From: an uncultured Clostridia bacterium
GTDB lineage: Bacteria; Bacillota; Clostridia; Christensenellales; Borkfalkiaceae
DNA length: 49,462 bases
Direction of reading: 5' to 3'
NCBI GenBank assembly: GCA_944358655.1
Contig: CALVRO010000010.1
Location: forward strand, 1 to 49,462
Program-made: the position numbers and the translations under genes
Shown: in pieces, positions 1,962-46,286 of the stretch
Layout of the letters: every line of letters begins with the position of its first letter
How positions within the stretch are numbered: position 1 is the stretch's first letter
The notes under the pieces: generated by a model
Database searches by the model: none
What the model was told of the DNA's origin: nothing
What the model saw: the letters and a program-made list of their open reading frames with translations, nothing else

Positions 1962-2597
1962 ATGCCAATCGCAACCGAAAAGTTCATAACAACGCACCGT
2001 GACCGAGTAAGGCGCGCCAACGAATACCGCGCCAAATCGCCCGAGCCTATCTCCATCTTCGACAGGGAGGCCATAGTTGAGTTCTACCTGTTGGAGGACG
2101 TGGTCCGGCTCTATCAATTCCGCCTGGCGCGGGAGGAGGCCAAGGTAGTCAATACCCGCGCGGGACGGATGGCCAGGGAGCGCAATATTGCAAAGTACAA
2201 GGCGATAATAGATATCTTTATGTCTACCGTCGAGATAGCGTGGGGCGAGATAGACGCCGGCAACTATAAAATAGTGTGGAGCAACATTCCCGAACACGCC
2301 CTTATGGTCGCCGCCAACAGCATAAAATATCTCCCCCAGCTCAGGGATATCGCCGTAAAGATGATCAAGGGCATTTCCGCCGAAATGCTCGAGGCGCAGG
2401 CGCTGGAAAAGGGATTCGAGGAGGATCTCGACGACGTGGAGGCTCACGAGGCCAACTACAGGCGCTACTACAACATGCCCGACGGCACAAAGGTGGAGGC
2501 TCCCTCGGCCGAAAAGATACAGGAGCTCATCGACAAGCTCAACGAGGTCATCCCCGACAACGACAATACCGTAAAATATAAGTCCAAACTCTCGTAA
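1962..2597 (+). CDS. Helical protein, first gene of ESCRT-like operon; possible second ESCRT-III-fold subunit
   Basis: 211 residues, predicted all-helical by reading, with no signal peptide, membrane segment or catalytic motif. The N-terminal third is basic (TTHRDRVRRANEYR), the C-terminal half acidic (EEDLDDVEAHE) and the end lysine-rich. A basic N-terminal part followed by an acidic regulatory tail is the ESCRT-III layout. The stretch around residues 90-150 is laid out like the matching part of the next protein. I do not recognise a named family; the ESCRT-III idea rests on size, charge pattern and neighbours. The start has AAAGGAG upstream. It is the first gene of a co-directional run in which a Vps4-like ATPase, a protease and a RuvB-like ATPase follow within short gaps. 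Confidence 0.6.
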   Translation: MPIATEKFITTHRDRVRRANEYRAKSPEPISIFDREAIVEFYLLEDVVRLYQFRLAREEAKVVNTRAGRMARERNIAKYKAIIDIFMSTVEIAWGEIDAGNYKIVWSNIPEHALMVAANSIKYLPQLRDIAVKMIKGISAEMLEAQALEKGFEEDLDDVEAHEANYRRYYNMPDGTKVEAPSAEKIQELIDKLNEVIPDNDNTVKYKSKLS

Positions 2598-2652
2598 CTC
2601 AATTTTAAAACATACTTCAACTTAAAATACATATATAAGGAGAACTAAAATC

Positions 2653-3279
2653 ATGGCAAGAAAATTAACCAACGACGATAAAATAATCAACGCTTTCGAC
2701 GCTCTCGACAAGTCGGTAAAAAATCTCAACAAATTCGGCGAGAAGTACAACGAGCATATCGACCGCGCCGCCATTCGCGGCGACGACGCGCGGGCAAGGC
2801 AGCTCATCCGTCAGAAGGTAGGCGTGTACGAGCTCGCCGAACAGCTCACAACGCTCAAGGGCAATATCGAGCTCGGCGTCTATACCTCGAAGGTCATTGC
2901 CGACCTCGGTGCCCTGCCCGACGCCATTTCGGCATGCAGGGGACTGCTCTCCGAGTCGCCCAACTTCAAAAAGCTCGGTTCGGATATCGAAAGGATATTC
3001 ATGGACATGAAGCGCCCCGTGGGCGAGATAAACCGTCTCAACGAAATCCTGGACAACGCGCTCGCTCCCGTTCCCTCAAATTCTCTTACAAGCCGTCTGG
3101 ACGGGGCCGACAGCTTCGAAAATTCCGACGCATACAAGGCCGAATACGCCGCCATGCTCGAAAGAATAAAGGGCAAAGTGGCCGGCGAGGCCGTTGCCAA
3201 GCCCACGGCCATCGGCAACGACGCCACCGAGGATATCGACTACGCAGGCCTCATCGACGAGGAAAACAAGAAAAAGTAA
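2653..3279 (+). CDS. ESCRT-III/Snf7-like protein with C-terminal MIM-like motif
   Basis: 208 residues, soluble, mostly helical. Residues about 5-100 form long charged helices with a basic start (MARKLTNDDK). A segment around 75-140 (ELGVYTSKVIADLGALPDAI then INRLNEILDNAL) reads like the helix 3-4 region of Snf7/CdvB proteins, where a hydrophobic helix precedes an N-L-x-E-I-L-type helix. A disordered acidic tail ends in DIDYAGLI (194-201) followed by DEENKKK. In eukaryotic and archaeal ESCRT-III the extreme C-terminus carries the motif that binds the MIT domain of Vps4; here the next gene is a Vps4-type ATPase. The same octapeptide type occurs in the protease two genes on. ESCRT-III membership is inference from layout and context. 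The start has AAGGAGA upstream. Confidence 0.65.
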   Translation: MARKLTNDDKIINAFDALDKSVKNLNKFGEKYNEHIDRAAIRGDDARARQLIRQKVGVYELAEQLTTLKGNIELGVYTSKVIADLGALPDAISACRGLLSESPNFKKLGSDIERIFMDMKRPVGEINRLNEILDNALAPVPSNSLTSRLDGADSFENSDAYKAEYAAMLERIKGKVAGEAVAKPTAIGNDATEDIDYAGLIDEENKKK

Positions 3280-3309
3280 GAATAGTAAGGAAAGTAAGGT
3301 AATCAAACA

Positions 3310-4530
3310 ATGTCCGAAGCAAGCATGATAGGCGTATTCAACGCCAAGATAAACGCGTTCAATAAGGCCGTGCGCGAGGGCGACGCTCAAGCCGTCTGCG
3401 ATATCGGCGCCGAGATGCTGCACATCGTAGTAGAAGAGTGCTCCAAGCCCGGCGTCGCCTCGTCGGTCAAGGACGTCTACCGCAAACAGGGGAAGGCGGT
3501 GCTCGATCACATAGTCCGTATGGCCAAGAGCCGCCCCGCGCCCACGGGCGCGGGCGGCGGACAGGCCGCGGGCAGCGACCCCTACTACGCGGAGAAGGAC
3601 TGGTTCTCCGACGACGTCCCCGCCCTCGGCTTTAAGGATATAATAGGCGTGCAGGAGGTAAAGGACGCCTTCATGGCCGACGTCGTGGCGCCATTAAGGC
3701 CCGAATTCCGCGAAGTCTACCGCAGGTTCCGGGGCGATCAGATTGGCAGCCAAATTCTGCTGACGGGCGTTCCGGGCACAGGAAAAACTCATATCGTAAG
3801 GTGCCTTGCGGGCGCTTTGAACTGTAAAATAGCCATAGTTTCCGCCAGCGAGGTGCTGGCCAGCGTTGTAGGCGTGGCCGAAAAGAACATACGCGACGTC
3901 TTTGCTCAGGCCGAAAAGCTTGAAAGGTGCATAATCTTCATCGACGAGATCGACAGCCTGTGCAGCGACCGCGATTCGCCCGACTCGCGCAACACCAAGT
4001 CGGTGCTCACCACGCTGCTCACCTGCATGGACGGGTTTACAAAGACCACCGAGCCCGGGCGGCTGCGCATAATTGTTGCGGCCACCAACCTTCCGTGGAA
4101 GCTCGACCCCGCCTTAAAGCGCGGCGGCAGGTTCGAAACGCAGATCTACGTTCCTCTGCCCGACAAGGACGGGCGCATCATGTTCGTGCACAACGGCCTT
4201 GCAAAGGTGCCCCACGCCGCCGACGTCACCGAAGACTGGCTGGCCGAAAGAATGAACGGGTACTCGGGCGCAGACATAAAGGCAATGCTGAGGCAGATAT
4301 CCAACAGGCCTCTCCGCCGCGAGATAAAGAACATAACCGAAAAGAGGGGCGTTGCGGGCGAAAGGGTCACCCGCGAGGACTGCGAGGAAGTTATAAAAAA
4401 TTACATAAACCCCGTCAATACCGAAATGCTTCTGCGCTTTGAAGCGTACAATAAAGGAATGTCTTACATTCAGTACCTGACAAAGCTCAGGGCCGAGGCC
4501 GAAGCAAAGGGCAAGAAAGATGATAAGTAA
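3310..4530 (+). CDS. Vps4/katanin-like AAA+ ATPase with N-terminal MIT-like domain
   Basis: 406 residues. Residues 1-75 form a three-helix segment of MIT type, followed by a Gly/Ala linker. The single AAA module has Walker A GVPGTGKT (153-160), Walker B IIFIDEID (208-215), a second region of homology with AATN, and GGRFETQIYVPLPD, the signature of the meiotic clade (Vps4, katanin, spastin) rather than FtsH or ClpX. A C-terminal helical lid with an extra basic helix ends the protein. Vps4 enzymes pull ESCRT-III subunits out of membrane polymers by threading them through a hexamer. The gene sits directly after an ESCRT-III-like gene with a candidate MIT-binding tail, the expected partner. It overlaps the next gene by 11 nt. 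The AAA call is secure; the disassembly role is inference. Confidence 0.9.
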   Translation: MSEASMIGVFNAKINAFNKAVREGDAQAVCDIGAEMLHIVVEECSKPGVASSVKDVYRKQGKAVLDHIVRMAKSRPAPTGAGGGQAAGSDPYYAEKDWFSDDVPALGFKDIIGVQEVKDAFMADVVAPLRPEFREVYRRFRGDQIGSQILLTGVPGTGKTHIVRCLAGALNCKIAIVSASEVLASVVGVAEKNIRDVFAQAEKLERCIIFIDEIDSLCSDRDSPDSRNTKSVLTTLLTCMDGFTKTTEPGRLRIIVAATNLPWKLDPALKRGGRFETQIYVPLPDKDGRIMFVHNGLAKVPHAADVTEDWLAERMNGYSGADIKAMLRQISNRPLRREIKNITEKRGVAGERVTREDCEEVIKNYINPVNTEMLLRFEAYNKGMSYIQYLTKLRAEAEAKGKKDDK

Positions 4531-5629
4531 GGAATATATTACCGCGTGTTACGTCAACGCGCGCGAACAGATAAAGCTGGGCAACCCGCGCGAGGCAAGG
4601 GCATTTATTTTAAAGATACTCAACGCCGCCGTAAGCAGCTATTACGCCCCCGAGGCCTCCATACTTTCAAGGGCCAAAACGGCGGCCTTTATGGATAAAT
4701 GGCTGGCCGTCTCCCGCGTTCTCTACGAGGACGGCATAACCGAATGGGTCAGGCGCGCCTTCGGCCTCGCCGAAGAGCGTCCCGCGCTGACGCCCCCCGT
4801 CGAAAAGCCTTCCGCGCCCGCCTCGGAGGGCGGCGCGCTCCCCGTTCCCGATATCGAGGGGCTTATGGCGCCCGAAGGGAAGGGGACGGAAACCGCCCCC
4901 GCCGAGCCCGCGAAAAGTGACCTCCCCGAGCCTGCGCTCCCCGCAGACAAGCTGCCCGCAGCCGACATAGACTATTCGGGGCTCATCGCCGAGTCGGCCG
5001 ACAAGGCCGACTGGGTGGCCTCGCTGTTCGAGGCCAACAGGGGAGCCGTCGTCCGCATCACCATCGCCGCCAACGGCAGCCTGACCAGCGGCACGGGCTT
5101 TATTATCTCGCCCAACGGGTACCTTCTCACCAACGACCACGTTGTGTTCGACGAGGCCACGGGCGCCTATCACTCAAAGGTGAAAATGTCCTTCGAGGGA
5201 CAAAAGAAGAGCTATAAATTGGACGTGCTCTTTTCGGACAAGTCTGCAGACGTCGCGCTCTGCTCCTTCGACCCCGCCGAGGTGGGCGACTTCAAGGTGA
5301 TAAAGCGCATTTCAGACTATTCAAAGGTCAGACAGGGCACCGAGTGCATGGTGATAGGCAACATGTTCGGACAGGGGCTCTCGCCCTGCATGGGCAATAT
5401 CCGCTACACCAAGAGCGCCGATGGCAATATCGTCTACACCGTGCCCTCCAACCCCGGCGATTCGGGCGGGCCCGTCTTTATCCGCAGCGGCGAGTGCATA
5501 GGCATACACAAGAGTAAAACCACTTCCGTCAACGCCAGCTCGGCCGACGGCGTGGCCAACGCCACGCCCATGGACAGGATAGACGCCCTGCTTAAAAAGT
5601 GGACGGAGTGCAACGGCATAACTCTCTGA
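4520..5629 (+). CDS. Cytosolic trypsin-like serine protease with N-terminal MIT-like domain
   Basis: 369 residues without signal peptide or membrane span, so probably cytosolic, unlike most HtrA proteins. Residues 1-83 form a helical domain alignable by eye with the N-termini of the ATPases before and after it. A Pro/Ala/Glu-rich linker (84-147) follows. The linker holds DIEGLM (111-116) and ends in DIDYSGLI (149-156), nearly identical to the tail motif of the ESCRT-III-like protein. The protease domain has His207 (TNDHVV), Asp244 (SADVAL) and Ser315 (NPGDSGGP), a full catalytic triad. No PDZ domain is present. The start overlaps the ATPase gene by 11 nt, indicating coupled translation. It may be brought to the complex by MIT/MIM contacts to cut a component or client; the substrate is unknown. 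Confidence 0.88.
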   Translation: MISKEYITACYVNAREQIKLGNPREARAFILKILNAAVSSYYAPEASILSRAKTAAFMDKWLAVSRVLYEDGITEWVRRAFGLAEERPALTPPVEKPSAPASEGGALPVPDIEGLMAPEGKGTETAPAEPAKSDLPEPALPADKLPAADIDYSGLIAESADKADWVASLFEANRGAVVRITIAANGSLTSGTGFIISPNGYLLTNDHVVFDEATGAYHSKVKMSFEGQKKSYKLDVLFSDKSADVALCSFDPAEVGDFKVIKRISDYSKVRQGTECMVIGNMFGQGLSPCMGNIRYTKSADGNIVYTVPSNPGDSGGPVFIRSGECIGIHKSKTTSVNASSADGVANATPMDRIDALLKKWTECNGITL

Positions 5630-5646
5630 CAAAGGAGCACAAAAAG

Positions 5647-7194
5647 ATGTCATTCAAGGATGAATTTCTTCAAAAATACAGGGTCGCCCTGCACGCCGCC
5701 CGCGCGAACGACGAAAAGGGGGTGATAGACGGGCTCTCCGAGCTGTACTCCCTCTTTTGCGAGCAGTACGGCAAAAACAACGGCGACAGCATAGTTATAA
5801 AAGCCAAGCTAAGCTATTGGCAGGACGTGTTCGGCTCATACATAGCAATAGTGCGCGAGCACGGCCTTTCCGACAGGCGCGTTAAAAAGTTCTTCGGGCT
5901 GATAGCCGATGACGACGTGCCGTCGTTCGGCGAACTGCTGAGGGGCGGAGAAATGCCCGCAGTCGCGCCTTCCGCCCCCTCGGACGGCCGCGACACATAT
6001 CCCTCGGTGACGGCGCCGAAGGAAGATATCGCCCCCGTAGCACCTCCCGACAATACGGGGGACATCCCCTCGGTCATCCCTCCCGAGCCCTATGCGGCCC
6101 AAGGGGGGGAGGGGGAAACGCCCTCGCCCGCACCAAGCGGTGGGGAGGCCGGGCCCTGCGAGCCGCTCTCACCCGTACCCGAAAAGGGGGGCAAGAGCAG
6201 GGCGGGAGGGGGGAGCGACCGCCCCTCGTTCACCCCGCAGAGCCTCAGGGATTTCATCGGTCAACAGCACATAGTACGCGTTCTTTTAAAGGAAATTGCC
6301 ATTGCAAACAACGAGGGCAGACGGCACCTCGACAACATACTCCTCTTCGGCGAACCCGGTTTGGGCAAATCTACTCTCATGGAGCTGATAGCCAAGGAGC
6401 TGGGGGTACCGTTCGAGCTTTTGGACTGTTCGCAGTTCCGCAACAGCCAGCAGTCGCTCAAGGCTCTGCAGAACTTCTTCCTGCGCGTCGCGCGCGAAAA
6501 CAAGCCCGTAGTCATCGCCCTCGACGAGATACACATGCTCAATAACGAGCTGCAGTCCTCCCTCCTCACCCTTCTCAACAACAGGGTGTATGTCTCCCCG
6601 CTCGACGTCAACGGCCGCTGCGTGCGCGTGCCCATCGACGAATTCACCTTCATCGCCGCCACCACCGACGACGATAAAGTGCTCGATACCATCAAAAACC
6701 GCTGCCTCAGGCTCAAGTTCCAGATGGTCGACTACACCCCCGAGGAGCTTACGCGCATCTATAAGAACAAGGTGGCCGCAAAGGGGCTTACCATCACCGA
6801 CGAGGCCGTGGCTGCCTGCGTGCCCCGCAGCAGGGGCGCGATAAGGTACGTCAACGCCATAGTCGACGGCCTCAACACTGCGCTCTACAGCGACGAGGGC
6901 GTGCGCCTCTCCACAAGCATAGATCTCGACCTCGCGCTCAGATATTTCGCCGAAAAGGGCATAGACCCCATCGGCCTCGAGGCCAAGGATATCGAGATAT
7001 TAAATACCATTGCCGAGGACACAAGCGGCGCCGTAAGCGCCGACGTGCTGTCGGCAAGGGTGGGCATGGATACCAAAAAGTATCTCTCCGAGTACGAGCG
7101 CTACCTTATAAAAATAGGCTTCATCTCGGTCAGCGGCCGCGGCCGCAGCCTCACCGAAAAGGCCCTCGAATACCTTAAAAAGAGCCATTCATAA
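5647..7194 (+). CDS. RuvB-like AAA+ ATPase with N-terminal MIT-like domain
   Basis: 515 residues from the ATG with AAAGGAG upstream; an in-frame ATG at 5599 would overlap the protease and has no such site. Residues 1-88 are an MIT-like helical domain, followed by a long Pro/Gly/Ser linker (about 95-195). The rest is close to RuvB: DFIGQ, Walker A GEPGLGKST (235-243), Walker B VIALDEIH (289-296), sensor-1 AATT, a lid helix, and a C-terminal winged helix ending YLIKIGFISVSGRGR, as in the DNA-binding domain of RuvB. True RuvB is about 340 residues, lacks the N-terminal domain and usually sits with ruvA. Whether this paralogue works on DNA or has become a remodeller of the complex cannot be told. 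It is the last gene of the GC-rich part of the operon. Confidence 0.88.
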   Translation: MSFKDEFLQKYRVALHAARANDEKGVIDGLSELYSLFCEQYGKNNGDSIVIKAKLSYWQDVFGSYIAIVREHGLSDRRVKKFFGLIADDDVPSFGELLRGGEMPAVAPSAPSDGRDTYPSVTAPKEDIAPVAPPDNTGDIPSVIPPEPYAAQGGEGETPSPAPSGGEAGPCEPLSPVPEKGGKSRAGGGSDRPSFTPQSLRDFIGQQHIVRVLLKEIAIANNEGRRHLDNILLFGEPGLGKSTLMELIAKELGVPFELLDCSQFRNSQQSLKALQNFFLRVARENKPVVIALDEIHMLNNELQSSLLTLLNNRVYVSPLDVNGRCVRVPIDEFTFIAATTDDDKVLDTIKNRCLRLKFQMVDYTPEELTRIYKNKVAAKGLTITDEAVAACVPRSRGAIRYVNAIVDGLNTALYSDEGVRLSTSIDLDLALRYFAEKGIDPIGLEAKDIEILNTIAEDTSGAVSADVLSARVGMDTKKYLSEYERYLIKIGFISVSGRGRSLTEKALEYLKKSHS

Positions 7195-7310: not shown

Positions 7311-7910
7311 ATGACAAAGAAAGAACTTTTAGACATGTTTGAAGGCAGTATATTGCAAAATGATACCGAAAATGGCGGGCTGTTCAAGTGGTACTATTCG
7401 CTGATCAAGGCTGCTTTGGAGCCCGTGCCCGAAAAATGTGAGGTCAGCGGAGGGCTTCTCTCCAAGTACAAAAACGCCGACGATTTGGGCAGCCGCATAA
7501 GGAACGCCGTCTCTCTCATCTCCGCCCCAAACGAGCTTGAAACCTGCCTGAAAGATATTCTTTCCTCGGCCCGTAAGGCGGCGCTGCCCTTTTCTAAAGT
7601 TCCGCCTTCGGCCGAAGAACAGAAATCCATGCGCCTAAAAGTCATTGAAAGAACAGACGAAATAATGCTCGATCTTTGTTCAAATAGCCGTTATGAGCAA
7701 GCCTGCAAAAGCTTATCCGAGGCGCGCGACATAATGTCGCATATGCTGTTCCCCAAGTCAAGCCCGTCTGTTTCGGACATATATCAAAGGATGATGGAGC
7801 AAATAGATCGCATTTCCGAAATGTTTCGCATCGGAAAATATACCGAGGCTCAGTCCGCTGCCGAAGATATCCGCGTAAACGCTATTAAATGGAGAGATAT
7901 GGAGAGGTAA
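7311..7910 (+). CDS. Hypothetical helical protein
   Basis: 199 residues, soluble, helical throughout, no family recognised. The last 40 residues (EQIDRISEMFRIGKYTEAQ...) have the helix-turn-helix rhythm and Gly-Lys-Tyr turn also found in the MIT-like N-termini of the ATPases upstream, and the middle (SRYEQACKSLSEARDIM) shows the same pattern. It may therefore contain two degenerate MIT- or TPR-like repeats; this is weak. The ribosome site is poor. The gene opens a run of six closely spaced or overlapping genes with lower GC and more AT-ending codons than those before 7.2 kb. Confidence 0.6.
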   Translation: MTKKELLDMFEGSILQNDTENGGLFKWYYSLIKAALEPVPEKCEVSGGLLSKYKNADDLGSRIRNAVSLISAPNELETCLKDILSSARKAALPFSKVPPSAEEQKSMRLKVIERTDEIMLDLCSNSRYEQACKSLSEARDIMSHMLFPKSSPSVSDIYQRMMEQIDRISEMFRIGKYTEAQSAAEDIRVNAIKWRDMER

Positions 7911-7915
7911 TAAAT

Positions 7916-8602
7916 ATGGAAAGACAAAAAATCATCATGCTTGAGCCAGGAGCCGACTACATTATAGCTCACGCCACGGTGAGCCGTCGTGATCTTTTGG
8001 AAAAAACTATTGTGGGTGACAAGCCTGCGGCAGGCATTAAGAGGGGCATAATGTATGACCTGTATGTCCTTAACTGCAAACATGGCACATTCGAGCCCGT
8101 CGGAAATGAAGATATCGTCGGGGGAGATAGGGTTTGTCAAGCTGCAGGCGATACCCCGTATATCGAAATGTATTGGATAAAAAAGGGCGACAGCGTCATA
8201 ACCGTACCTTGGGGAATACCTTCGTCGTGCGGAAAGCCTGCTATAAACGGACAACTTGAATTCAGGGTATGCGGCAACAGCGTCGACAGCTTTTTTTCAT
8301 GGGTAAGAGGATTTGGCACAAAGGTGATAGGCAATTACGCCTATAACGGTTTGGGCTATGAATTTGTGTCGGATTTTTTTGTTGATGCAAAGGGCAATAT
8401 GTGCGGCATAGCCATAGCGTTAAGAGATCTTTTGCTTGAAGATATACGCGCCGCGATCTCCAATATCGATTATGATTGCAAGGAAAAAGTGGAAGGGGCA
8501 ATCAGGGGCGCTGTGGAAAAACACAGGGATATATTGGATGTAATCCAATTCAACGGCGATACGCCATTTAAAATCTTTAAGGCGGAGGGGCAAAAATCAT
8601 GA
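7916..8602 (+). CDS. Possible SPFH-type (YdjI/virion-core-like) protein
   Basis: 228 residues from the ATG at 7916, chosen because GGAGAGG lies 8 nt upstream; an earlier ATG at 7889 would overlap the previous gene. Beta-rich first half, helical end. The stretch near residues 85-135 (MYWIKKGDSVITVPWGIPSS, then QLEFRVCGNSVDSFFSW) resembles the YdjI branch of the SPFH superfamily, where a W-G-x-P turn precedes a strand and a helix. In Bacillus, ydjI sits with a PspA-family (ESCRT-III-fold) gene, ydjF, so the pairing with an ESCRT-like operon would make sense. No membrane span is visible. The homology is by eye only; otherwise it is a hypothetical protein. It overlaps the next start by 4 nt (ATGA). 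Confidence 0.6.
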   Translation: MERQKIIMLEPGADYIIAHATVSRRDLLEKTIVGDKPAAGIKRGIMYDLYVLNCKHGTFEPVGNEDIVGGDRVCQAAGDTPYIEMYWIKKGDSVITVPWGIPSSCGKPAINGQLEFRVCGNSVDSFFSWVRGFGTKVIGNYAYNGLGYEFVSDFFVDAKGNMCGIAIALRDLLLEDIRAAISNIDYDCKEKVEGAIRGAVEKHRDILDVIQFNGDTPFKIFKAEGQKS

Positions 8603-11007
8603 TCACTGCAGGTGTATTTACGGTAATAGGTCTTTCGTTTATGGCGTTGCAGCTTTGGAATAAGGAAGCTATTATTCCTGCCGTCTGGACGGAATTTGCC
8701 GGCGACGGTGTGCAGAGTATCGTATCGGCAATAGTCGATAATTTAAGGGGTAAATACCACGACGCCAAACTTGCGAAGAAGATGAATGAAATATCGCCGC
8801 AAGACATGGAAAAGTACAAGCTGATATGCAACGAGGTGCGGGAGGCGGAAGAGGACAATAAAAAGAAGTGGCAAGATCAAAGCAAGATAAGGAATGCTTT
8901 TGAAAAAATAAAGGATAAAATATTGCCCGACTCGAAAAAGAAGGATAAATTTGATATAAAAGACGTAAGGACGATCGTTGCCATAAGCGAATGTGTGTTG
9001 TGGGAGCTTGATTATAAAGAGTATATCGAGGCGTGTTCGCCAACATTCATGAATTTGCCCGAAAGCGAAAAGAACAGCTTCGCGTTATTTATAAATACAG
9101 TCGTCGATATTTACCGTAAAAGAATATTTTCCAAAACCGACGACGAGAAAAGGGTTACTGCGAGCATAATTGTTTCATCTTTAAAATTTTATATTGAAAG
9201 GATACGCGAGGACGTCGACGAAAGATTCGACGGCATAGAGGACGACCTTGCGGACAAGGTGGCTGCAAAGCTCGCCCTTGCCTGCGGCGACGACGGCGCA
9301 AATATCCAGCGCGTTGCTCTTGCGCGCTTTTCACCTAAATATATTCTCAATTCATGTCCCGAGTGCGGTTACGCAGGCCCGAGGATATATTCAAACGAGA
9401 GTACGGGCATGACCACATGTGCGGCCTGCGGAAGAAGTTATTCTCTGGTCAAATATTGTCGGCCGGATATATGCGAGGAAATAAATGCCAAGCTCAACGT
9501 TATGAAGAGCGATAACGGCAAGTTCCGCGAACAGCTTGTATCGATGTACGGTCAACAAAGCCAAAAGACGGACTATATCTTAAGCGTCCTCGAAAAAGTA
9601 AAAAACAACGGCATAGTGACGAACACCATGCTCGATATTATGTCGGACGGGTTGGAAAACGTTGCTACCAAACAGCTTCTCGATGAATGTATGAAGGACG
9701 TAGTGCAAGCGACTGCCGACGTCGGCGACATTGTCGAGCGTTCGTTCAAAGAGTACTTCGAAGGACTTTCGGAAATTAAAGGTTCAACGCAGGAAATTTC
9801 GCAGGCGATGAAAGATATGGCCGAGCAGAACAAAGAGTACAATGCCTTTACGCTGAAATGCTTCGATTCGCTCGGCGGCCAGATAGCCGATATCTACAAC
9901 TACGCCAGCGAAAGTTTCGGAAAGCTGTGTTCGGATAACGCCCTCATAATGCAGTATGTAAGCAGGGCGTGCAGCAAGGAATATTTGGAGAGTATGTCCG
10001 ATTCGCTCGGCCTTGACATAAAACACGCCATACGCCTTGAGGGAGAAAAGATAACGGCGTTGAATATGTCGAGCGTTGCGCAGATAATAGGCGCTATCGA
10101 CAGGTTAAAGGACGAGATAGCGCCGTCCGAGTCGAAAAAGGCAAGTTCTGATTCTGATGAGGATAGGCGTCAGTTTGAATGGCTGCTCAGAAACGAGAGT
10201 TCGCAGCTGAGCGGTCAGATACGCGGATTGCATGCCGTGCTCAGAAGCAGCGACGAAAATAACCGCCGCGCATTTCGCGCTATAATCGACAGCCAGGAGG
10301 AGATCAAAAGCATACTGCTTGCCAAAGTCGGTTTAAATATCACCCGGCAACAGGCCGAAAGCATGTACCGCGGGCGGATACCTTCAAGATACCTCTATAA
10401 CGAGGGCTTCGGCGGGCCCTTCGCCTGCCCTTACTGCGGCGTTGTTGAGGATCGCCGCATGAATGAAGAGCAGTACTGCAGGTGTTCGGTGTGCGGGCAA
10501 AAATTCCTTGCCATCGATCCTTTCAACGTAAAAGGGCGTTTTGATGAGAGGGATATTTGGCAGGCGATAGAGGAAAATTGCGGCCGCGACGTTTCCGACC
10601 CTCTGTTGGCTACTCCCGAACGGGTAGAGGCTTGGCGCGCAGCCCACAGGGCTCAACGGTCGCAAAATAATGAGATAAAGATGAAATCTTCGGACGGCAT
10701 ACTGCTCATGCCCGAACTTCCTATCGGAAATATCGAAAAGTTATATTTTGGTGCAAAGGTGCGCAGCAGCGTTGAAACGCTTATATTCCCTGTCGGTTAT
10801 AAAGATATTCCCGCAGGATTGCATCTTGAAAGCCTTGTTTGTCTTAAGTCTATAGTTTTTATGGGTAAGAATGGCAAGTCAGATATCGATCCGACTAATT
10901 TATCGGGTAAAAATGGGCAACGGCCGTTGACACAATGTTTAAGAAGGGATATAATAGTTTACGGGAACGATTGCTATGGTAAGCCTATAAAGCTCGTCCG
11001 CGATTGA
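8599..11007 (+). CDS. Large protein with two zinc ribbons, coiled coils and possible membrane anchor
   Basis: 802 residues. A hydrophobic stretch at about 3-20 (GVFTVIGLSFMALQLW) may be a membrane anchor. It is followed by a charged helical region, a first zinc ribbon (Cys253-x2-Cys256 and Cys274-x2-Cys277), a long coiled-coil segment (about 290-590), a second zinc ribbon (Cys610-x2-Cys613 and Cys629-x2-Cys632) and a C-terminal beta part (about 695-802) with leucine-rich-repeat-like strands (VETLIFPVGYKDIP). No catalytic motif is seen. The design (anchor, ribbon, coil, ribbon) suggests a scaffold or sensor. I do not recognise the family. Translation is coupled to the preceding gene by a 4-nt overlap, and GGAGGGG lies upstream. 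Confidence 0.75.
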   Translation: MITAGVFTVIGLSFMALQLWNKEAIIPAVWTEFAGDGVQSIVSAIVDNLRGKYHDAKLAKKMNEISPQDMEKYKLICNEVREAEEDNKKKWQDQSKIRNAFEKIKDKILPDSKKKDKFDIKDVRTIVAISECVLWELDYKEYIEACSPTFMNLPESEKNSFALFINTVVDIYRKRIFSKTDDEKRVTASIIVSSLKFYIERIREDVDERFDGIEDDLADKVAAKLALACGDDGANIQRVALARFSPKYILNSCPECGYAGPRIYSNESTGMTTCAACGRSYSLVKYCRPDICEEINAKLNVMKSDNGKFREQLVSMYGQQSQKTDYILSVLEKVKNNGIVTNTMLDIMSDGLENVATKQLLDECMKDVVQATADVGDIVERSFKEYFEGLSEIKGSTQEISQAMKDMAEQNKEYNAFTLKCFDSLGGQIADIYNYASESFGKLCSDNALIMQYVSRACSKEYLESMSDSLGLDIKHAIRLEGEKITALNMSSVAQIIGAIDRLKDEIAPSESKKASSDSDEDRRQFEWLLRNESSQLSGQIRGLHAVLRSSDENNRRAFRAIIDSQEEIKSILLAKVGLNITRQQAESMYRGRIPSRYLYNEGFGGPFACPYCGVVEDRRMNEEQYCRCSVCGQKFLAIDPFNVKGRFDERDIWQAIEENCGRDVSDPLLATPERVEAWRAAHRAQRSQNNEIKMKSSDGILLMPELPIGNIEKLYFGAKVRSSVETLIFPVGYKDIPAGLHLESLVCLKSIVFMGKNGKSDIDPTNLSGKNGQRPLTQCLRRDIIVYGNDCYGKPIKLVRD

Positions 11008-11046: not shown

Positions 11047-12147
11047 ATGAAAGATATATTTTCATATGTAAAAAAATTTTTTGCTTCGTTGTTTGCTTTT
11101 GGTGCTAAGGCGCCTACGGATGCGCCCCACAAGCCAGACGTTGGCGGCGGTATGGGGGAAACACCTGAAAACGCCGGGGGAGTTAGTGCCCAAACAAGTG
11201 TCGTTTCGCTGTCCGGCTGCACTATGGAGAATATAGACATGTCCGACAACAAGAGTAAATACACGATCAGTCCAAATAATAATGAAGAGTGTAAGGCGGC
11301 CGACAATGCCGGGCATCCCGCAAGTACGGCTGCCGATAAGGGTGAGAGCGGCGATCCCCCCAAGAAGAGTAAAAAAGGAAAAAAAGATCGACAGCCTGAT
11401 AAGCGCGAGGAGTTTTATTATGCCAAATATGCCGAACTCAAAAAACAATATAAGAAAAAGAAGGACATCATTTTTGCGTTGATTGGAGCCTATTTTGAAG
11501 AACTGGATAGAGGGCACGACCTTGCAAGAGAGAATTACAGATTAAAAATGCGAAGTAACTGTTTGAGGATAGAAAATGAACAGTATAAGCTGACGTTCGG
11601 GGATATGCAGGCCCAGATCGCCAAACTCAAGCAAAAGACAAGCGCCAGCGCCGTGCGTTTAAAAACTGCTCAGGCCGAACAGAGAAATCACATGAACGAG
11701 CTCAACGCCAAAGAACAGGAGATGGCAAAGCTGAGCTTAGATCTGCAAAATTCCGACGCTAAGCTGGGTGAGCTGGAGAAGGAGATAGACAAAAAAGAAC
11801 GCGACCACCGCGTGGAGCTTGAAGAACTTAAGAATGGCTGGAACGCCGTTCTTAAGAAACTTGACGACGCAAACAGTTCAAAAAATAAGCTTGCCGATGA
11901 AAACGAACAATTAAAAAAGTTTATGTTTGAGGCGATGGGGTGTTCCGACAGCGACAAGCGCCAAAAAATACTTGTCAGAAAACTCGAAGAGTACAGGCTG
12001 TCCTCCTCGGCTATGAGGTCGGTAGGCGATATCTGCCGGAATATGCACGACTGCACCAACTTCGACCAGGTGTCCTTCCAGATATACAACCTCGACAATA
12101 TTTTAAAACAATACACCGAAAAACTAAAGCAAAAGGAGGAAAGCTGA
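11047..12147 (+). CDS. Coiled-coil protein beside Hsp70-fold ATPase
   Basis: 366 residues. The first 18 (MKDIFSYVKKFFASLFAF) can form an amphipathic, membrane-binding helix. A low-complexity Gly/Asn/Lys-rich region follows to about 115, ending in a strongly basic patch (KKSKKGKKDR). Residues about 120-300 are a long coiled coil; a short globular helical end follows. It is one base apart from the Hsp70-fold gene and has GGAGG upstream. A coiled coil next to an Hsp70 invites comparison with the exchange factor GrpE, but I see none of GrpE's beta domain, so this is not claimed. The amphipathic start and coil recall PspA-type membrane binding as another option. Family unknown. Confidence 0.7.
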   Translation: MKDIFSYVKKFFASLFAFGAKAPTDAPHKPDVGGGMGETPENAGGVSAQTSVVSLSGCTMENIDMSDNKSKYTISPNNNEECKAADNAGHPASTAADKGESGDPPKKSKKGKKDRQPDKREEFYYAKYAELKKQYKKKKDIIFALIGAYFEELDRGHDLARENYRLKMRSNCLRIENEQYKLTFGDMQAQIAKLKQKTSASAVRLKTAQAEQRNHMNELNAKEQEMAKLSLDLQNSDAKLGELEKEIDKKERDHRVELEELKNGWNAVLKKLDDANSSKNKLADENEQLKKFMFEAMGCSDSDKRQKILVRKLEEYRLSSSAMRSVGDICRNMHDCTNFDQVSFQIYNLDNILKQYTEKLKQKEES

Positions 12148-12148
12148 T

Positions 12149-14221
12149 ATGGCTGTTTTGGGAATAGATTTTGGCACGTCCTATACCATGCTGGTAAAAA
12201 AGACGTTGGTAAAAAAGGCGGGCAGCGATATAATGACGAATAAATTTACCCTAATAGGCGATGATGACTCGCTGTACTCCTTCGGCGATTCTTCATCGTC
12301 CATCGACCACCTCGTCACTGCCAAGGGCATAAGGACGGTTATCGGTATAGACGCAGACGGCAACTGCTATGTGGGAGAAAATGAGGTTTCCAAAGCCATA
12401 GAGCAAGGTAAACTTTCCTCCGCCGACTGCTGCTACGATATCAAGTCCAAACTCAGAAATCTTCTGGACGATACGGTTTTTGATATCAATTACAATCAGT
12501 CTGTCGTCGATTTGGATAATATACCCGAGGACAACAGATACGGATATTTTTTTTCGGGCAAGTTCATTGACGCAATAGAGCTCGCTCAACTTTTTTTTGA
12601 AGAGGTATTTGAAACGGTGCAGGATATCGACCTAAAGGATATCACATGTATAGTTATGGGTGCGCCGGCTTCCGATTACGACGTGGAGACTAACAAGGGA
12701 AATGACTATCAGCATCTTGTGCTCAATATAATTCTTGAGGGCATAAGGGATTATTTGGCGGAAAGGCTGTGTGTAAGAAAAGAGGGTATAGAAATTCGCG
12801 TTCGCCCCGAGCCTTCGTTGGCGGGCAGAGCTTTTATGTCCTTTTTTCCCAAGGCGTCTATCGGCAACAGCAAAAAACTGCTTGTAATCGATATAGGCGG
12901 AGGTACGGCCGACTTTTGCCTCCTCGATCGCAATGAAAGCGGCGAACTGTTTGCGCCTAAATCCGCCTATGGCAATGCCACCCCGGCGGGGGACGCCTTT
13001 GACGCAGCGCTTGAAAACGGGATCAAACAATTCTTCGAATTGGATAATACCGACTTTTCAAGAAGAGAGATAGAGAAGGCCAAGGAAGAACTCTTTTATC
13101 CGTCACATTCAAATCATATAAGGTCTCTTACATTGCGTAATGGCTACGATGTGTATAAGGATTATTGCAAACAAGGCAGGAGAACTGCAGTCAAGGACAA
13201 GGACGGCACAGAATACTGTGTGGCCTTTGATTCGAACCATGTAAAAGGTGTAAGCCACGATGGCATCAACTGGCAGGCTGATTATTATTCTTATAGCGAC
13301 GACTTCTATGATAAGTGTAGATTGTTGAACTACCATATAAATAAATATGTTGAAACGGCCGGTCTTATGGGCGCCAAAGACTACTGCGTGCTCTTCACGG
13401 GCGGCACGTCGCAGATGGATATGCTCAGGAAGTACATATGCGCCAACGCCCTCGGCGGCATAGATGAAAAAACCAGGGTATTCAGTCTCGATATATATCC
13501 GCGGGCCATTCTTACCTATGCAAATATGGTGGCAATAGGCGCGGCGTGCGCCGCAGATGAGCAATACGATACCATCTATTCCGTGCCGGAGATCTGGTTA
13601 CAGTTCAAGGGCGGAGAGGACAGATATCTCCTTTTATCGCAGGATATAAAGAATGGTGACAGCCAACCGAGGCAATGGCCTGTAATTGTCGATTATAGTG
13701 AAGAAGAACAATCTTCCGCCGAGGATAACGATGTTTCTCCTGATGAATTTGCGGAGTTTAAGCTTATTATAAAGAGGGCTAACAATTCGGAACAAAGTTA
13801 TCCCCGAAAAGAGGGAAGTTATTTTGGATATAAGCTTCCGAAAGACAAAAGGCTTCGCCGGCTCGCATTCATTGCCGACTACTCAAACAGCGGAGAGGTG
13901 GGTGTGTTTGTCTGCCTTCTTAAAAAGCTTAAAAATAAAAATGGCAGATATAGAAACGAGAACAATAATAAGGTCAAAACGGAAAAAATAATTGACACCT
14001 ATGAGTTCAGAACGTTAAATAATACAGCTTATCCTAAATACTTCAGAAAGCATTTTGAACACGTTCATGGTGTCCGTAAAAATTTACGAAAATATATCAT
14101 CACAAACAACCAATGTCTTCCAAACAGCAATATTCATGGTATAGCGTACAGTATTTCGACGCATATGGACGAAGGCTATGGCTGGAAACTGAAATCTGAC
14201 GGAGGAGAGCATAATGGCTAA
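12149..14221 (+). CDS. Divergent Hsp70/actin-fold ATPase
   Basis: 690 residues. The nucleotide-binding domain has phosphate-1 GIDFGTSYT near residue 5, phosphate-2 VIDIGGGTAD (246-255) and the adenosine motif LFTGGTS (415-421), in the order and spacing of Hsp70. Canonical DnaK signatures are absent and the last 200 residues do not resemble the DnaK substrate-binding domain. They carry an acidic stretch (EEEQSSAEDNDVSPDE), a beta-rich part and a basic region (KKLKNKNGRYRNENNNK). It is therefore an Hsp70-like protein with its own client domain, of the kind found beside special partners rather than the general chaperone. It lies between two coiled-coil genes and overlaps the next by 8 nt. A DnaJ gene lies 10.5 kb upstream. 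Confidence 0.85.
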   Translation: MAVLGIDFGTSYTMLVKKTLVKKAGSDIMTNKFTLIGDDDSLYSFGDSSSSIDHLVTAKGIRTVIGIDADGNCYVGENEVSKAIEQGKLSSADCCYDIKSKLRNLLDDTVFDINYNQSVVDLDNIPEDNRYGYFFSGKFIDAIELAQLFFEEVFETVQDIDLKDITCIVMGAPASDYDVETNKGNDYQHLVLNIILEGIRDYLAERLCVRKEGIEIRVRPEPSLAGRAFMSFFPKASIGNSKKLLVIDIGGGTADFCLLDRNESGELFAPKSAYGNATPAGDAFDAALENGIKQFFELDNTDFSRREIEKAKEELFYPSHSNHIRSLTLRNGYDVYKDYCKQGRRTAVKDKDGTEYCVAFDSNHVKGVSHDGINWQADYYSYSDDFYDKCRLLNYHINKYVETAGLMGAKDYCVLFTGGTSQMDMLRKYICANALGGIDEKTRVFSLDIYPRAILTYANMVAIGAACAADEQYDTIYSVPEIWLQFKGGEDRYLLLSQDIKNGDSQPRQWPVIVDYSEEEQSSAEDNDVSPDEFAEFKLIIKRANNSEQSYPRKEGSYFGYKLPKDKRLRRLAFIADYSNSGEVGVFVCLLKKLKNKNGRYRNENNNKVKTEKIIDTYEFRTLNNTAYPKYFRKHFEHVHGVRKNLRKYIITNNQCLPNSNIHGIAYSISTHMDEGYGWKLKSDGGEHNG

Positions 14222-15476
14222 TAATAGGAATAATAATCGAAGTATAAGGCCCCCCAAAGTGCTTGATAGGATGGAAGATAGCACGGAGTATCCTGCCGAA
14301 CCTAAACGGGAACAGTTCCAAGGAAGTCAAACACAGAGTGCGACCTCCAATGTGAACGGTGCGCCGTTTGACGAAAGCGGCAGTAAAAACATTACCCCGC
14401 CCAAAAATAACGGCGGCGCCGATTACAGCAAGGTGGAAAATGCCGTTGTGCGGTTGGAAAACTCCGTGATTGAGATGAGCAAAAAGCTCAACGGCGCGGT
14501 TGAAAAGCTTGACAAAACGGTGCAAAAGCAAGATTCGTACGATCAAACGCTTAAGAAAATTTCAGATGGTACCAATAATTTAAAAGACAGTATCATCCAT
14601 TTAAAAGACGCTGTCGGCCTAATACCCGACCTTATAGACAACTCTTCTCTGAGCGAGGAGATAGAGGAAAGCGTTTCAGGCGTCCTTGATGAAAAATTAA
14701 AGGAGCTGGCCGCCGCTTCGGAGGTGGATGACCTGTGGGGCGACGACGGGCATGGCCTGAACGGCATATTGCTTAAATTAAACGAGCTGTCCGAGACGGT
14801 CGAAAACATAAAGGATGATATCGATTGCGATCAGGTGGCCGAAGGCGGCGGCGACGCCCTGTCGGACAAGCTGGACGGTATAGGCGACGAGTTGAAGCGC
14901 CGTATCTACCATATTCTGACTTCCAGGCTTGCGAGTTTCGAGCGCGAGCTAAACCATTCTGTCTCTTCCAATGTTTCGTCGGCCATAAACAAAGGGGTCA
15001 GCGATTGTCTCAAAAACGTGCTTGACGCAAAACTTAAAAGTTTCGGCGAAAAGCAGAGCGAACTATCGGCAAAGACGGACAGCTCCGTCAAGGCTATGGG
15101 AGTAAAAATAAACGACAGGCTGTGCTCCATTGATGATGAGATAGGTTGGCTGAGAGAGAAGATATCGGCAGAGGACGGAAATATTTTCAATAAAAAATAC
15201 CTCGTCCCCGTCGGCTTTGTGTTCTATGCAATATTAAGCATGCTGCTCATCACGGGCATCTATTTTCTCCGTACCGACCTCGGTATGTCTCTCGGCGTGG
15301 TTTGGGCCGCGCTTATAGTCAATATCGTTTCTATAATCGCTATATTCACCGATATCGTTCTATATAAATGGATAACGGGCAGGTCGTCGGGCACGCAGGC
15401 AACTTTTGTTGTGGTGACAATTCTGATCGCCGTAGCCGCCCTCATTCTTTCACTGTTGTCCTTTGTCATTGTCTGA
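14214..15476 (+). CDS. Coiled-coil membrane protein with three C-terminal spans
   Basis: 420 residues. A disordered Asn/Pro/Ser-rich start (1-70) and long amphipathic coiled-coil helices (about 75-320) are followed by three hydrophobic spans at roughly 330-352, 357-384 and 395-419. The large N-terminal part would face the cytosol and could be the membrane dock of the Hsp70-fold and zinc-ribbon proteins encoded before it. No enzyme motif. The start overlaps the Hsp70-like gene by 8 nt with GGAGG just upstream. Its 3' end overlaps a convergent small gene by 27 nt. Family not recognised. Confidence 0.78.
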   Translation: MANNRNNNRSIRPPKVLDRMEDSTEYPAEPKREQFQGSQTQSATSNVNGAPFDESGSKNITPPKNNGGADYSKVENAVVRLENSVIEMSKKLNGAVEKLDKTVQKQDSYDQTLKKISDGTNNLKDSIIHLKDAVGLIPDLIDNSSLSEEIEESVSGVLDEKLKELAAASEVDDLWGDDGHGLNGILLKLNELSETVENIKDDIDCDQVAEGGGDALSDKLDGIGDELKRRIYHILTSRLASFERELNHSVSSNVSSAINKGVSDCLKNVLDAKLKSFGEKQSELSAKTDSSVKAMGVKINDRLCSIDDEIGWLREKISAEDGNIFNKKYLVPVGFVFYAILSMLLITGIYFLRTDLGMSLGVVWAALIVNIVSIIAIFTDIVLYKWITGRSSGTQATFVVVTILIAVAALILSLLSFVIV

Positions 15477-15921: not shown

Positions 15922-16794
15922 ATGAAAATCGCATGCGGGAGATCGGATATCATACTGTCGGAGGAGGGGCTGACGGGGGAGCAGGCTGAAAGGTGTGTGA
16001 TCGCCTCTCTGAGCGGCTCTACGGCCGTGGGCATGGCCGAGGAGAGGGGCGGCGCCCTCTTGCTCGGCGCGCCTGAGGGCGACGAGGGGGAGGGTCTCGG
16101 CGCCTCTCTCGCCGTCGCCGCGCTCTACTGCAAGGTGGCGGGCAAGGCGCTGGCCTTCGACGCACACGCCTTTTCGCGGGCGGGCTATAACTTTTCGTAT
16201 GTGTACAACACCGTCGCCGACGACCCCGCCCGGCTCGACGGCGTCGACGTCGTATTCTATAACCTTCGGCCGGACGACGAGATATTGGACGGCTGCACCT
16301 TCTTCATTGCGGGCAGCGCCGACGTGGAGACGGCTTCGCAGGCCTATTTTTCGTGGAAGGACAGGGCGGACAGAGAGGAGTTCGCCCGCTTTGAAAAGGC
16401 CGTAAGGGAGAAGCCCTTCGCCGTCTACCTCGCCGAGCTGATGGCCGCCAAGGGCATAGAAAAGAACTCCACCGTGTACAGGGCGGCGGGCATCTCCAAG
16501 TACACCTTCTCCAAGATAGCCGGCTATAAGTCCAAGCACGTTCCCTCGCGCGAGACGGTGGCCGCCCTCGCCATAGGCCTCAGGCTCAATTATGACGAGA
16601 CCGAGGAGCTGTACAACGCCGCAGGGTATCACCTCTCCATGAGTTTCTTTATCGACAGGGTGGTGGCCTTCTTCGTCAGAAATCTCATACACGATATCGA
16701 TCAGGTAAATTTCTGCCTCTTCGACTACGACTATCCCCCTCTCGGCGTCAGGCCGCGCGCCTCAAAGGACGACCCCGACGAGCAGAGGGACTGA
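15922..16794 (+). CDS. Two-domain protein with C-terminal HTH of conflict-system type
   Basis: 290 residues. The N-terminal part (1-150) is alpha/beta (ALLLGAPEGDEG, LGASLAVAALYCKVAGKALAF) with no recognised catalytic residues. The C-terminal part (about 160-275) is an HTH-like domain: a Tyr-Arg-x-AGISKYTFSKI recognition segment, then ETVAALAIGLRLNYDETEEL, AGYHLS, and a conserved end (VVAFFVRNLIHDIDQVNFCLF). This C-terminal arrangement is, in my knowledge, common in bacterial proteins fused to macro, vWA or nuclease-type domains near stress and conflict loci. Good ribosome site (AAAGGAG). It lies alone between the Hsp70-like gene run and the VirD4-like operon and ends at a strong terminator, so it may regulate either. 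Confidence 0.7.
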   Translation: MKIACGRSDIILSEEGLTGEQAERCVIASLSGSTAVGMAEERGGALLLGAPEGDEGEGLGASLAVAALYCKVAGKALAFDAHAFSRAGYNFSYVYNTVADDPARLDGVDVVFYNLRPDDEILDGCTFFIAGSADVETASQAYFSWKDRADREEFARFEKAVREKPFAVYLAELMAAKGIEKNSTVYRAAGISKYTFSKIAGYKSKHVPSRETVAALAIGLRLNYDETEELYNAAGYHLSMSFFIDRVVAFFVRNLIHDIDQVNFCLFDYDYPPLGVRPRASKDDPDEQRD

Positions 16795-26034: not shown

Positions 26035-26125
26035 GCGGATGTACCCAAGTGGCTCAAGGGGCTCCCCTGCTAAGGGAGTAGTGCGGGAAACTGCAGCGCG
26101 AGTTCAAATCTCGCCATCCGCGCCA
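26035..26125 (+). tRNA. tRNA-Ser (anticodon GCU)
   Basis: 91 nt with encoded CCA. The 7-bp acceptor stem is GCGGATG (26035-26041) with CATCCGC (26115-26121), then the discriminator G. The anticodon stem reads CTCCC-CTGCTAA-GGGAG, placing GCT as anticodon, which reads AGC/AGU serine codons. A long variable arm (class II tRNA) and a TTCAAAT T-loop are present. Its 3' end is the left attachment site of a mobile element, which leaves the tRNA intact. Confidence 0.95.
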
Positions 26126-26126
26126 A
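26103..26126 (+). repeat. Left attachment site (attL) in tRNA-Ser
   Basis: The 24-bp core covers the T-loop, the 3' acceptor strand, CCA and one base more. It is identical to 33840-33863. Confidence 0.92.
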
Positions 26127-26132
26127 GCGAAA

Positions 26133-26167
26133 AGTCTTAAAATCAGTCGGTTTTAAGGCTTTTTTCT
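26133..26167 (+). terminator. Element-borne terminator behind tRNA-Ser
   Basis: A 10-bp stem with one G-U pair (26133-26142 with 26151-26160) and T6. It lies inside the element and replaces the original tRNA terminator, which integration has moved to 33862-33903. Confidence 0.8.
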
Positions 26168-26216
26168 TTGTTTTTGAGCCATTTTTGCGCGTTTATTGAG
26201 TTCAAAAAATATTGTG

Positions 26217-26235
26217 TACCCTTTAATTTACCCTT
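26217..26235 (+). repeat. Integrase arm-type sites, left end
   Basis: TACCCTT twice with a 5-bp spacer (26217-26223 and 26229-26235). The same pair with the same spacing recurs in direct orientation at 33706-33724 near the right end. Confidence 0.6.
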
Positions 26236-26241
26236 TACAGC

Positions 26242-26270
26242 AAAAAAGAGCCCTTTTGAGGCTCTTTTTT
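26242..26270 (-). terminator. Terminator of integrase gene
   Basis: AAAAAAGAGCC (26242-26252) pairs with GGCTCTTTTTT (26260-26270); A and T runs on either side let it work in both directions. It overlaps the stop codon of the integrase. Confidence 0.88.
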
Positions 26271-28306: not shown

Positions 28307-28320
28307 ATCAATCCTCCATT

Positions 28321-46269: not shown

Positions 46270-46286
46270 AGGAGGTTTTTCGGGCC

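Follow-up and report, generated by a model that had tools for sequence, protein, structure and literature searches.

The window analyzed here, a 49,462-nucleotide stretch from an uncultured Clostridia bacterium (contig CALVRO010000010.1 of assembly GCA_944358655.1; host genome 1.85 Mb in 66 contigs), carries at positions 1962 to 7194 an operon that very probably encodes a bacterial member of the ESCRT-III superfamily, as judged from family matches and a structure model. The gene for this protein (P2) is directly followed by genes for an AAA+ ATPase with a likely MIT-type domain (P3), a trypsin-like protease (P4), and a RuvB-like ATPase (P5). A sequence-only reading of the window had described five packed co-directional genes at this place, and all five were present on the plus strand in the open reading frame (ORF) list: 1962-2597 (211 amino acids), 2653-3279 (208), 3310-4530 (406), 4520-5629 (369), and 5599-7194 (531). 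The gaps between them do not exceed 55 bases, and P4 starts 11 bases within P3. The GTG start at 5599 is probably wrong, because the close homologues of this gene start at the equivalent of window position 5647; the start of P5 was therefore corrected to the ATG at 5647 (MSFKDEF..). The features of the core are as follows.

1962..2597, plus strand: P1, helical protein of 211 amino acids, one or two copies per locus (present in 34 of the 37 related loci)
2653..3279, plus strand: P2, 208 amino acids, very probable ESCRT-III protein (Snf7/PspA superfamily; Pfam Snf7, model, and PDB comparison)
3232..3276, plus strand: P2 C-terminal tail motif DIDYAGLIDEENKKK, in a MIM-like position (motif count; low-confidence predicted helix at residues 198-205)
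3310..4530, plus strand: P3, likely MIT-AAA+ ATPase, 406 amino acids (Pfam AAA and AAA_lid_3)
3310..3534, plus strand: predicted three-helix domain of MIT type in P3, residues about 1-75
4520..5629, plus strand: P4, trypsin-like protease; helical domain at the N terminus, linker carrying the motif (Trypsin_2, E 2e-18)
4520..4783, plus strand: P4 N-terminal domain, with a homologous counterpart in P5 (hhalign)
4964..4996, plus strand: P4 linker motif DIDYSGLIAES, resembling the P2 tail motif (pattern count)
5647..7194, plus strand: P5, RuvB-like AAA+ ATPase with RuvB winged helix and P4-type N-terminal domain (RuvB_N, RuvB_C)

The sequence-only reading had made its proposal depend on conservation of the gene set, and the same genes were found in the same order in other genomes; the arrangement is therefore not due to chance. 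A search of genome_contigs with the AAA sequence alone returned 44 loci, 37 of them close (L046-L082, two from one genome) and 7 generic. Among the 37, P2 was present in 36 (missing in L069), P1 in 34, P4 in 33, and P5 in 31, with some of the absences falling at contig ends. The order P1-P2-P3-P4-P5 was unbroken throughout, and P3 started between 4 bases before and 112 bases after the end of P2. Twelve of these loci had contributed to profile building; in the 25 that had not, P2 was found in 24, P1 in 22, P4 in 22, and P5 in 21. P1, P2, P4, and P5 were all lacking from eight generic AAA loci (L083-L090, the 7 generic loci and one from a viral contig), the last being the single distant locus, without other operon genes, that the AAA fragment found in viral_contigs.

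Likewise, the P2 profile matched 23 of 396 genomes of the order at E 0.01, 12 of them strongly (E <1e-20, own genome included) and 11 weakly (E 2e-5 to 0.008). In the 12 loci inspected (the 11 other strong matches and one from genome G137), P3 immediately followed P2 in every case; no P4 was seen in L043 (genome G268), and L037 and L041 end ahead of any P5. Five of the weak matches were inspected by eye and rejected: they comprise two DNA polymerase III gamma/tau genes (L024 and L026), a seryl-tRNA synthetase (L027), and, both described below, a fusion of ESCRT-III-like and FtsK-type parts (L025) and a member of a second ESCRT-III-like family (L033).

Candidate ESCRT-III protein and MIT-type ATPase

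The proteins encoded at 1962 and 2653 had both been proposed to be ESCRT-III-like, and only the second proved to be a convincing relative. Pfam Snf7 (E 0.05) was matched by 22 of the 37 P2 orthologues, with no other family matched by more than one. The predicted structure of P2 contains the long helical hairpin of the ESCRT-III type (helices 7-41 and 45-86, pLDDT 75-87 across residues 11-80), followed by short helices. When this model was compared with the PDB by VIA-align, 29 of 50 rows were ESCRT-III, PspA, or Vipp1 entries, including the first 13. P1, by contrast with what had been proposed, was dropped as a second ESCRT-III subunit: Pfam Snf7 was silent, and hhalign gave a probability of 4 percent for a relation to P2.

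Several results weigh against this assignment of P2. A 13-member P2 profile returned 15 PDB rows, none of them ESCRT-III and the best being the TPR protein Sti1, although a three-member profile had placed CHMP2A fifth among PDB entries (E 0.12). The Snf7 match of the window's own P2 (E 0.0012, 19.0 bits) lies below the Pfam cut-off of 27.3 bits, and a scan of its genome gave one match (E 0.0018). This score is weak by itself, because matches below the cut-off were also obtained in 12 of 14 control genomes when E values up to 10 were allowed. Such a permissive model would suit the view that P2 is a mere coiled-coil hairpin whose likeness to ESCRT-III is convergent, as would the low identity (9 to 17 percent) in the first 13 PDB rows, the presence of unrelated hairpins among the rows, and the hhalign probability of 60 percent between P2 and the second ESCRT-III-like family. 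However, the orthologue in L062 reaches 31.8 bits and so passes the Snf7 cut-off (the one orthologue to do so), no competing family emerged, and P2 adjoins the MIT-AAA gene in 36 of 37 loci. We therefore regard convergence as extremely improbable and membership of P2 in the ESCRT-III superfamily as very probable.

The motifs GVPGTGKT, IIFIDEID, and RFETQIYVPLPD, which had been attributed to the ATPase, were located in the protein encoded at 3310, and the residues G156/K159/T160, D212/E213, and R271/R274 are invariant across 37 P3 sequences. The earlier description of P3 as a Vps4-like ATPase of the meiotic clade found support in the N-terminal domain; the placement in that clade was not supported. 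In a comparison of the N-domain model with the PDB, 12 of 50 row titles name MIT, MITD1, or Vps4, and the MIT domains of archaeal Vps4 (2v6y and 2w2u) superpose on the model across 74 residues with a root mean square deviation of 1.9-2.0. The N-domain is also linked by profile (probability 96.1) to the MIT-like family A25. The A25 profile in turn returned 13 PDB rows that include chitin synthase 2mpk (E 0.002), which we take to be an MIT entry, as well as 2w2u (E 0.57) and Vps4b 2cpt (E 4.3).

Not all comparisons agreed with an MIT-type N-domain, and the following were negative or speak against it. The best row of the A25 profile was 2jpu (Orf c02003 protein), ahead of the MIT rows, and A25 compared with a single yeast MIT sequence gave 0.3 percent. 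The profile of the P3 N-domain itself returned 21 PDB rows, mostly TPR and designed proteins and none of them MIT. When the N-domain profiles A18, A19, and A20 were compared with yeast MIT, 4, 2, and 73 of 300 shuffles, respectively, were equally good. Pfam MIT had no match in the window's own genome; on ten N-domains, with E values up to 10, it matched only that of the planctomycete locus L086, below the cut-off (E 0.051). Overall, a MIT-type build of P3 is likely and is argued for by the fold and by bridged profiles, not by Pfam.

The grouping of the ATPase domain was less favorable to a Vps4 identity. In a tree of 38 AAA rows, the 20 P3 rows formed one clade neighboring other bacterial MIT-like AAAs, and yeast Vps4, the sole Vps4 row and flagged as a long branch, lay across a 99/95 split from it. 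The pore-loop tryptophan of yeast Vps4 (SKWMGESE) was absent from all 13 P3 rows of alignment A5, in which pore loop 1 reads SVVGVAEK, NLVGDGAK, or NLVGDAEK. Of the 104 fragments scanned, 37 of which are C-terminal, one matched Vps4_C (E 0.028). Rankings of AAA proteins by phmmer in the PDB were not used to place P3, because two-domain Cdc48/p97 chains dominate them. P3 thus appears Vps4-like in build; Vps4 identity itself lies beyond the present evidence.

Further pairs of ESCRT-III-like and MIT-like AAA genes were observed elsewhere. A second, commoner ESCRT-III-like family (L033 and L091-L110) occurs in 27 of 297 genomes of the order and keeps the same gene order, the ESCRT-III-like gene preceding the MIT-like AAA gene. 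At its 17 single-domain loci, the MIT-like AAA gene lay within 200 bases downstream in 14, and an additional helical gene stood just upstream in 14. Three of 46 fragments of this family match Snf7 (best E 2.8e-8); its profile returned two PDB rows, both unrelated. The tail in L033 fits the pattern of MIM1 (MIT-interacting motif 1), unlike those of the 20 further members tested. By eye, an ESCRT-III-like N terminus is fused to an FtsK/SpoIIIE-type-looking ATPase in L025 (1468-3003, 511 amino acids); a similar fusion in L099 (637 amino acids) was judged by length and match alone. MIT-like AAA genes were also seen by eye near ESCRT-III-like proteins of about 200 amino acids in Planctomycetota (L084, 875-9498; L086, 1043-11152), flanked by kinase and formylglycine-enzyme-like genes and, in L086, a caspase-like gene. 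The window's own genome holds a second ESCRT-like locus on contig C63 (L011, 6029-19408). It encodes a long coiled-coil protein with a weak Band_7 match, helical proteins of 338 and 194 amino acids, an AAA protein with a Vps4_C match below the cut-off (E 0.0011), another MIT-like AAA protein, and a 2233-amino-acid protein with TIR, TPR, LRR_5, and InlB repeats. The profile comparison of P2 with the 194-amino-acid protein gave 4 percent.

Protease, RuvB-like ATPase and a shared motif

The catalytic triad that had been noted in P4 was borne out: the columns of H207, D244, and S315 are invariant among 34 sequences (alignment A15). The last gene was likewise correctly named RuvB-like, as P5 matches Pfam RuvB_N (E 2e-17) and RuvB_C (E 3e-14), both above the cut-offs. 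It fails as a RuvB equivalog of housekeeping branch migration (151.6 bits against the NCBIfam cut-off of 282) and carries a long additional N-terminal part relative to RuvB. P4 and P5 begin with domains that are homologous to each other (hhalign probability 98.7, E 3e-16, 93 columns). A weak link connects the P4 domain to the MIT-like family A25 (hhalign probability 75); direct profile comparison of the P4 and P5 domains with that of P3 gave no match (4.6 and 4.0). No further copy of the N-domains was found among 126 neighbor proteins and eight window genes.

P2 ends with DIDYAGLIDEE, and the linker of P4 holds DIDYSGLIAES. Sequences were counted if they contained [DENS][IV][DN][YFIVL], a spacer of one or two residues, [IL][ILVM], a second spacer of at most two residues, and [DE]; this pattern was devised after the sequences had been seen, and the rows are related, so that matches are not independent events. 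It was present in 25 of 37 P2, 21 of 34 P4, and 4 of 29 P5 sequences and in none of 35 P1 and 38 P3 sequences. In shuffled sequences the corresponding counts were 3/740 (P2), 6/680 (P4), 9/580 (P5), 17/700 (P1), and 9/760 (P3), and none of 334 other same-strand ORFs of at least 120 residues contained it. The motif starts 14-17 residues before the C terminus in all 25 P2 matches and between residues 107 and 149 in P4. Matches are concentrated in the closer half of the family (24/24 P2, 21/24 P4); in the divergent loci L070-L082 they number 1 of 13 P2 and 0 of 10 P4, and the divergent P2 tails still terminate in a similar acidic-hydrophobic stretch (by eye). The P2 tail differs from the MIM1 pattern and is a putative MIT-interacting motif. 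The occurrence of one motif in two places suggests one kind of partner, most simply MIT-type domains. We judge the chances of a shared docking code to be evenly balanced.

Distribution and genomic neighborhood

The operon forms a sporadic cluster carried by some gut bacteria. It was found in 3 of 151 genomes of the family and in none of 18 other genomes listed for the same genus, and in the class sample the P2 profile matched 1 of 391 genomes, namely its own. A search of viral_contigs with P2 found nothing. Hosts are mostly Clostridia metagenome-assembled genomes, together with Mollicutes-type genomes (L058, L062, L064, and L067), Bacilli (L050), and Alphaproteobacteria (L079); these labels were taken from the records, and binning errors are possible. 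The proposed ESCRT-III machine is probably borne on mobile DNA.

Beyond 7194 the operon continues with same-strand genes up to 15476; a gap follows, past which further ones extend to about 21.7 kb.

7311..7910, plus strand: variable-region gene (weak match, E 3e-5, to the gene after P5 in genome G123)
7889..8602, plus strand: variable-region gene without assignment (ORF list)
8599..11007, plus strand: zinc-ribbon protein with hydrophobic N terminus (similarity cluster of 6, window copy included)
11047..12147, plus strand: coiled-coil-like protein (by eye)
12149..14221, plus strand: divergent Hsp70/actin-fold protein (weak MamK, DnaK, and HSP70 matches; cluster of 4, window copy included)
14214..15476, plus strand: coiled-coil protein whose C-terminal part has transmembrane-like segments (by eye), without Pfam match
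15922..16794, plus strand: helix-turn-helix regulator-like gene (HTH_26, E 0.0014, below the cut-off), matched in L009, L010, L035, L036, and L040
16928..18550, plus strand: P13, with glycine-rich end (by eye), without Pfam match; matches in L036, L038, and L040
18547..20244, plus strand: P14, VirD4/TraG-like coupling ATPase (T4SS-DNA_transf, E 8e-52); matches in L036, L038, and L043

Of 126 neighbor proteins collected, 112 were scanned (14 were excluded because they exceeded 960 residues or ran on beyond the end of the locus), and part of this set may be chromosomal and outside the operon. Pfam matches were LRR_5 in 16, LRR_8 in 9, HSP70 in 4, FtsK_gamma in 3, TIR_2 in 3, Clp protease in 2, and VirD4-type in 2, and PADLOC gave scattered single-protein matches. 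In L009 (14114-17182, reverse complement; genome G123), a TIR-like domain, a zinc ribbon, and BspA-type leucine-rich repeats were seen by eye in an operon gene. ClpP-like genes stand near the operon end in L035 (17022-17594) and, similarly, in L038 (15381-15962; both by eye). Elsewhere in the window, inspection by eye indicated an HtrA-like secreted serine protease separate from P4 (34635-35753), phage terminase large subunit-like and portal protein-like genes (44824-48271), and an integration site at 26035-29550, where a tRNA-Ser is followed by two tyrosine-recombinase-like genes and one repressor-like gene on the minus strand.

These surroundings bear on what the operon might do. In one alternative, which we consider unlikely, the polymer would be a switch-like platform in a conflict system, an immune or stress-signaling scaffold and not a membrane cutter: leucine-rich repeat, TIR, and zinc-ribbon partners would sense and trigger assembly, the protease would execute or activate, and P3 and P5 would reset the platform. 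The sporadic distribution would fit such a role, as would the variable neighbors (LRR_5, HSP70, and TIR_2), the integrase-like genes seen by eye immediately ahead of the operon in L035, L036, L037, and L042, and the N-domain common to protease and motor, which recalls the adaptor principle set out in part of PMC8195603. However, PADLOC matched single and mostly generic proteins (AAA as IetA, proteases, TIR as ThsB), its other matches (mad3, mad8, LmuB, AriA, and PDC-M61B) occurred in 1-3 of 112 neighbors each, and TIR_2 is limited to 3.

Improbable, to a greater degree, is a protein quality-control system independent of membranes: P2 would be a coiled-coil adaptor, and aggregates or assemblies would be handled by the unfoldase, the protease, and the Hsp70-like partner. 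A trypsin-like protease and AAA+ ATPases are indeed present, HSP70 and Clp-protease matches occur among the neighbors, and a DnaJ gene (461-1612, by eye) lies directly upstream of the operon, ending 349 bases before P1. Nevertheless, no DnaJ gene was noticed by eye at the L009 and L010 operons (other loci were not searched), the resemblance of the 12149 protein to Hsp70 is distant (E 0.03), and the fold and tail of P2 are those expected of a polymer subunit with a handle. Very improbable, finally, is that the genes serve a conjugative or integrative element's own transfer or envelope passage. The VirD4/TraG-like gene of the window, L036, L038, and L043, with integrase-like genes nearby (by eye), speaks for this reading, yet the window, inspected by eye and not searched, showed no further type IV secretion gene, and P14 was matched in 3 of 12 fetched loci, several of them incomplete.

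Proposed mechanism and relation to known systems

The reading we favor, and hold to be reasonably likely on the predicted folds and domain matches, is that an ESCRT-III polymer serves as a platform to which an unfoldase, a protease, and a further motor are drawn. P2, perhaps with P1, would polymerize via its long helical hairpin, probably at a membrane, and its C-terminal DIDYxGI..EE tail would act as a handle. The MIT domain of P3 would grip this tail and thread subunits out, as Vps4 does. MIT-like N-domains would bring P4 and P5 onto the same polymer; with both recruited, proteolysis and a second motor would act at the polymer site. The P4 linker motif might hold P4 off by competition in cis or, as a mock tail, admit it to the array. 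The variable leucine-rich repeat, TIR, zinc-ribbon, and Hsp70-like genes could be sensing or effector parts. If so, a response to membrane damage or invasion would be the likeliest role, and this is the weakest step of the proposal. Action on membranes has somewhat better than even prospects in our judgment; a role in defense is more tentative. Equally tentative is the proposal as a whole, in which an ESCRT-III tail code recruits a motor, a trypsin-like protease, and a RuvB-like motor through MIT-type domains within a mobile, exchangeable membrane-defense module.

Among the closest parallels are the archaeal Cdv and Asgard ESCRT-III-Vps4 systems (CdvB-CdvC), which likewise co-encode ESCRT-III and an MIT-AAA+ protein and have a conserved ESCRT-III tail; by fold, the MIT domain of archaeal Vps4 ranks with the best matches to the P3 N-domain. 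In contrast to these, the host here is bacterial, the operon adds a protease and a RuvB-like ATPase, and P3 lacks the pore-loop tryptophan and stands apart from yeast Vps4 in our small tree. PspA and Vipp1 share the superfamily fold with P2; however, P2 obtained Snf7 and no PspA match in Pfam. Neither PspA nor Vipp1 is known to be encoded beside an MIT-AAA protein. Service of PspA/Vipp1 by PspF or any other ATPase is left open in passages of PMC8281802.

Bacterial VPS4-like ATPases have been described in PMC11237479, in passages reporting that a TPR/6TM gene has displaced snf7 and that AAA+ ATPases adjoin Snf7 homologues bearing a transmembrane segment. The likeness is a VPS4-like AAA+ protein in bacteria; the gene set studied here differs from those passages in having a Snf7-family gene directly upstream, plus a protease and a RuvB-like gene, and overlap between the two is possible. 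EAD-type conflict systems (PMC8195603, in part) also join trypsin-like proteases and other proteins by shared adaptor domains and have variable effectors, whereas the core here is ESCRT-III and MIT-AAA; the terms ESCRT, Vps4, Snf7, and RuvB do not occur in the main text of that paper so far as available. Among the titles and abstract openings listed by searches of open-access PMC (supplements and preprints aside), none described this gene set. The N-domain of P4 and P5, the linear motif, the variable cargo genes, and the second ESCRT-III-like/MIT-like-AAA family go beyond the sequence-only reading.

Archaea and eukaryotes are usually seen as the owners of the ESCRT-III and Vps4-type motor pairing, and the bacterial PspA and Vipp1 are generally taken to lack a dedicated disassembly motor. 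The bacteria described here would combine ESCRT-III and a Vps4-like motor with a docking motif plus an attached protease, and the gene order recurs in a second, commoner family. Small soluble proteins would thereby allow direct tests of how the ESCRT-III/Vps4 pair arose and of ATP-driven ESCRT-III remodeling in bacteria. Overall, the operon hints at a protease-armed bacterial version of a machine best known from archaea and eukaryotes.

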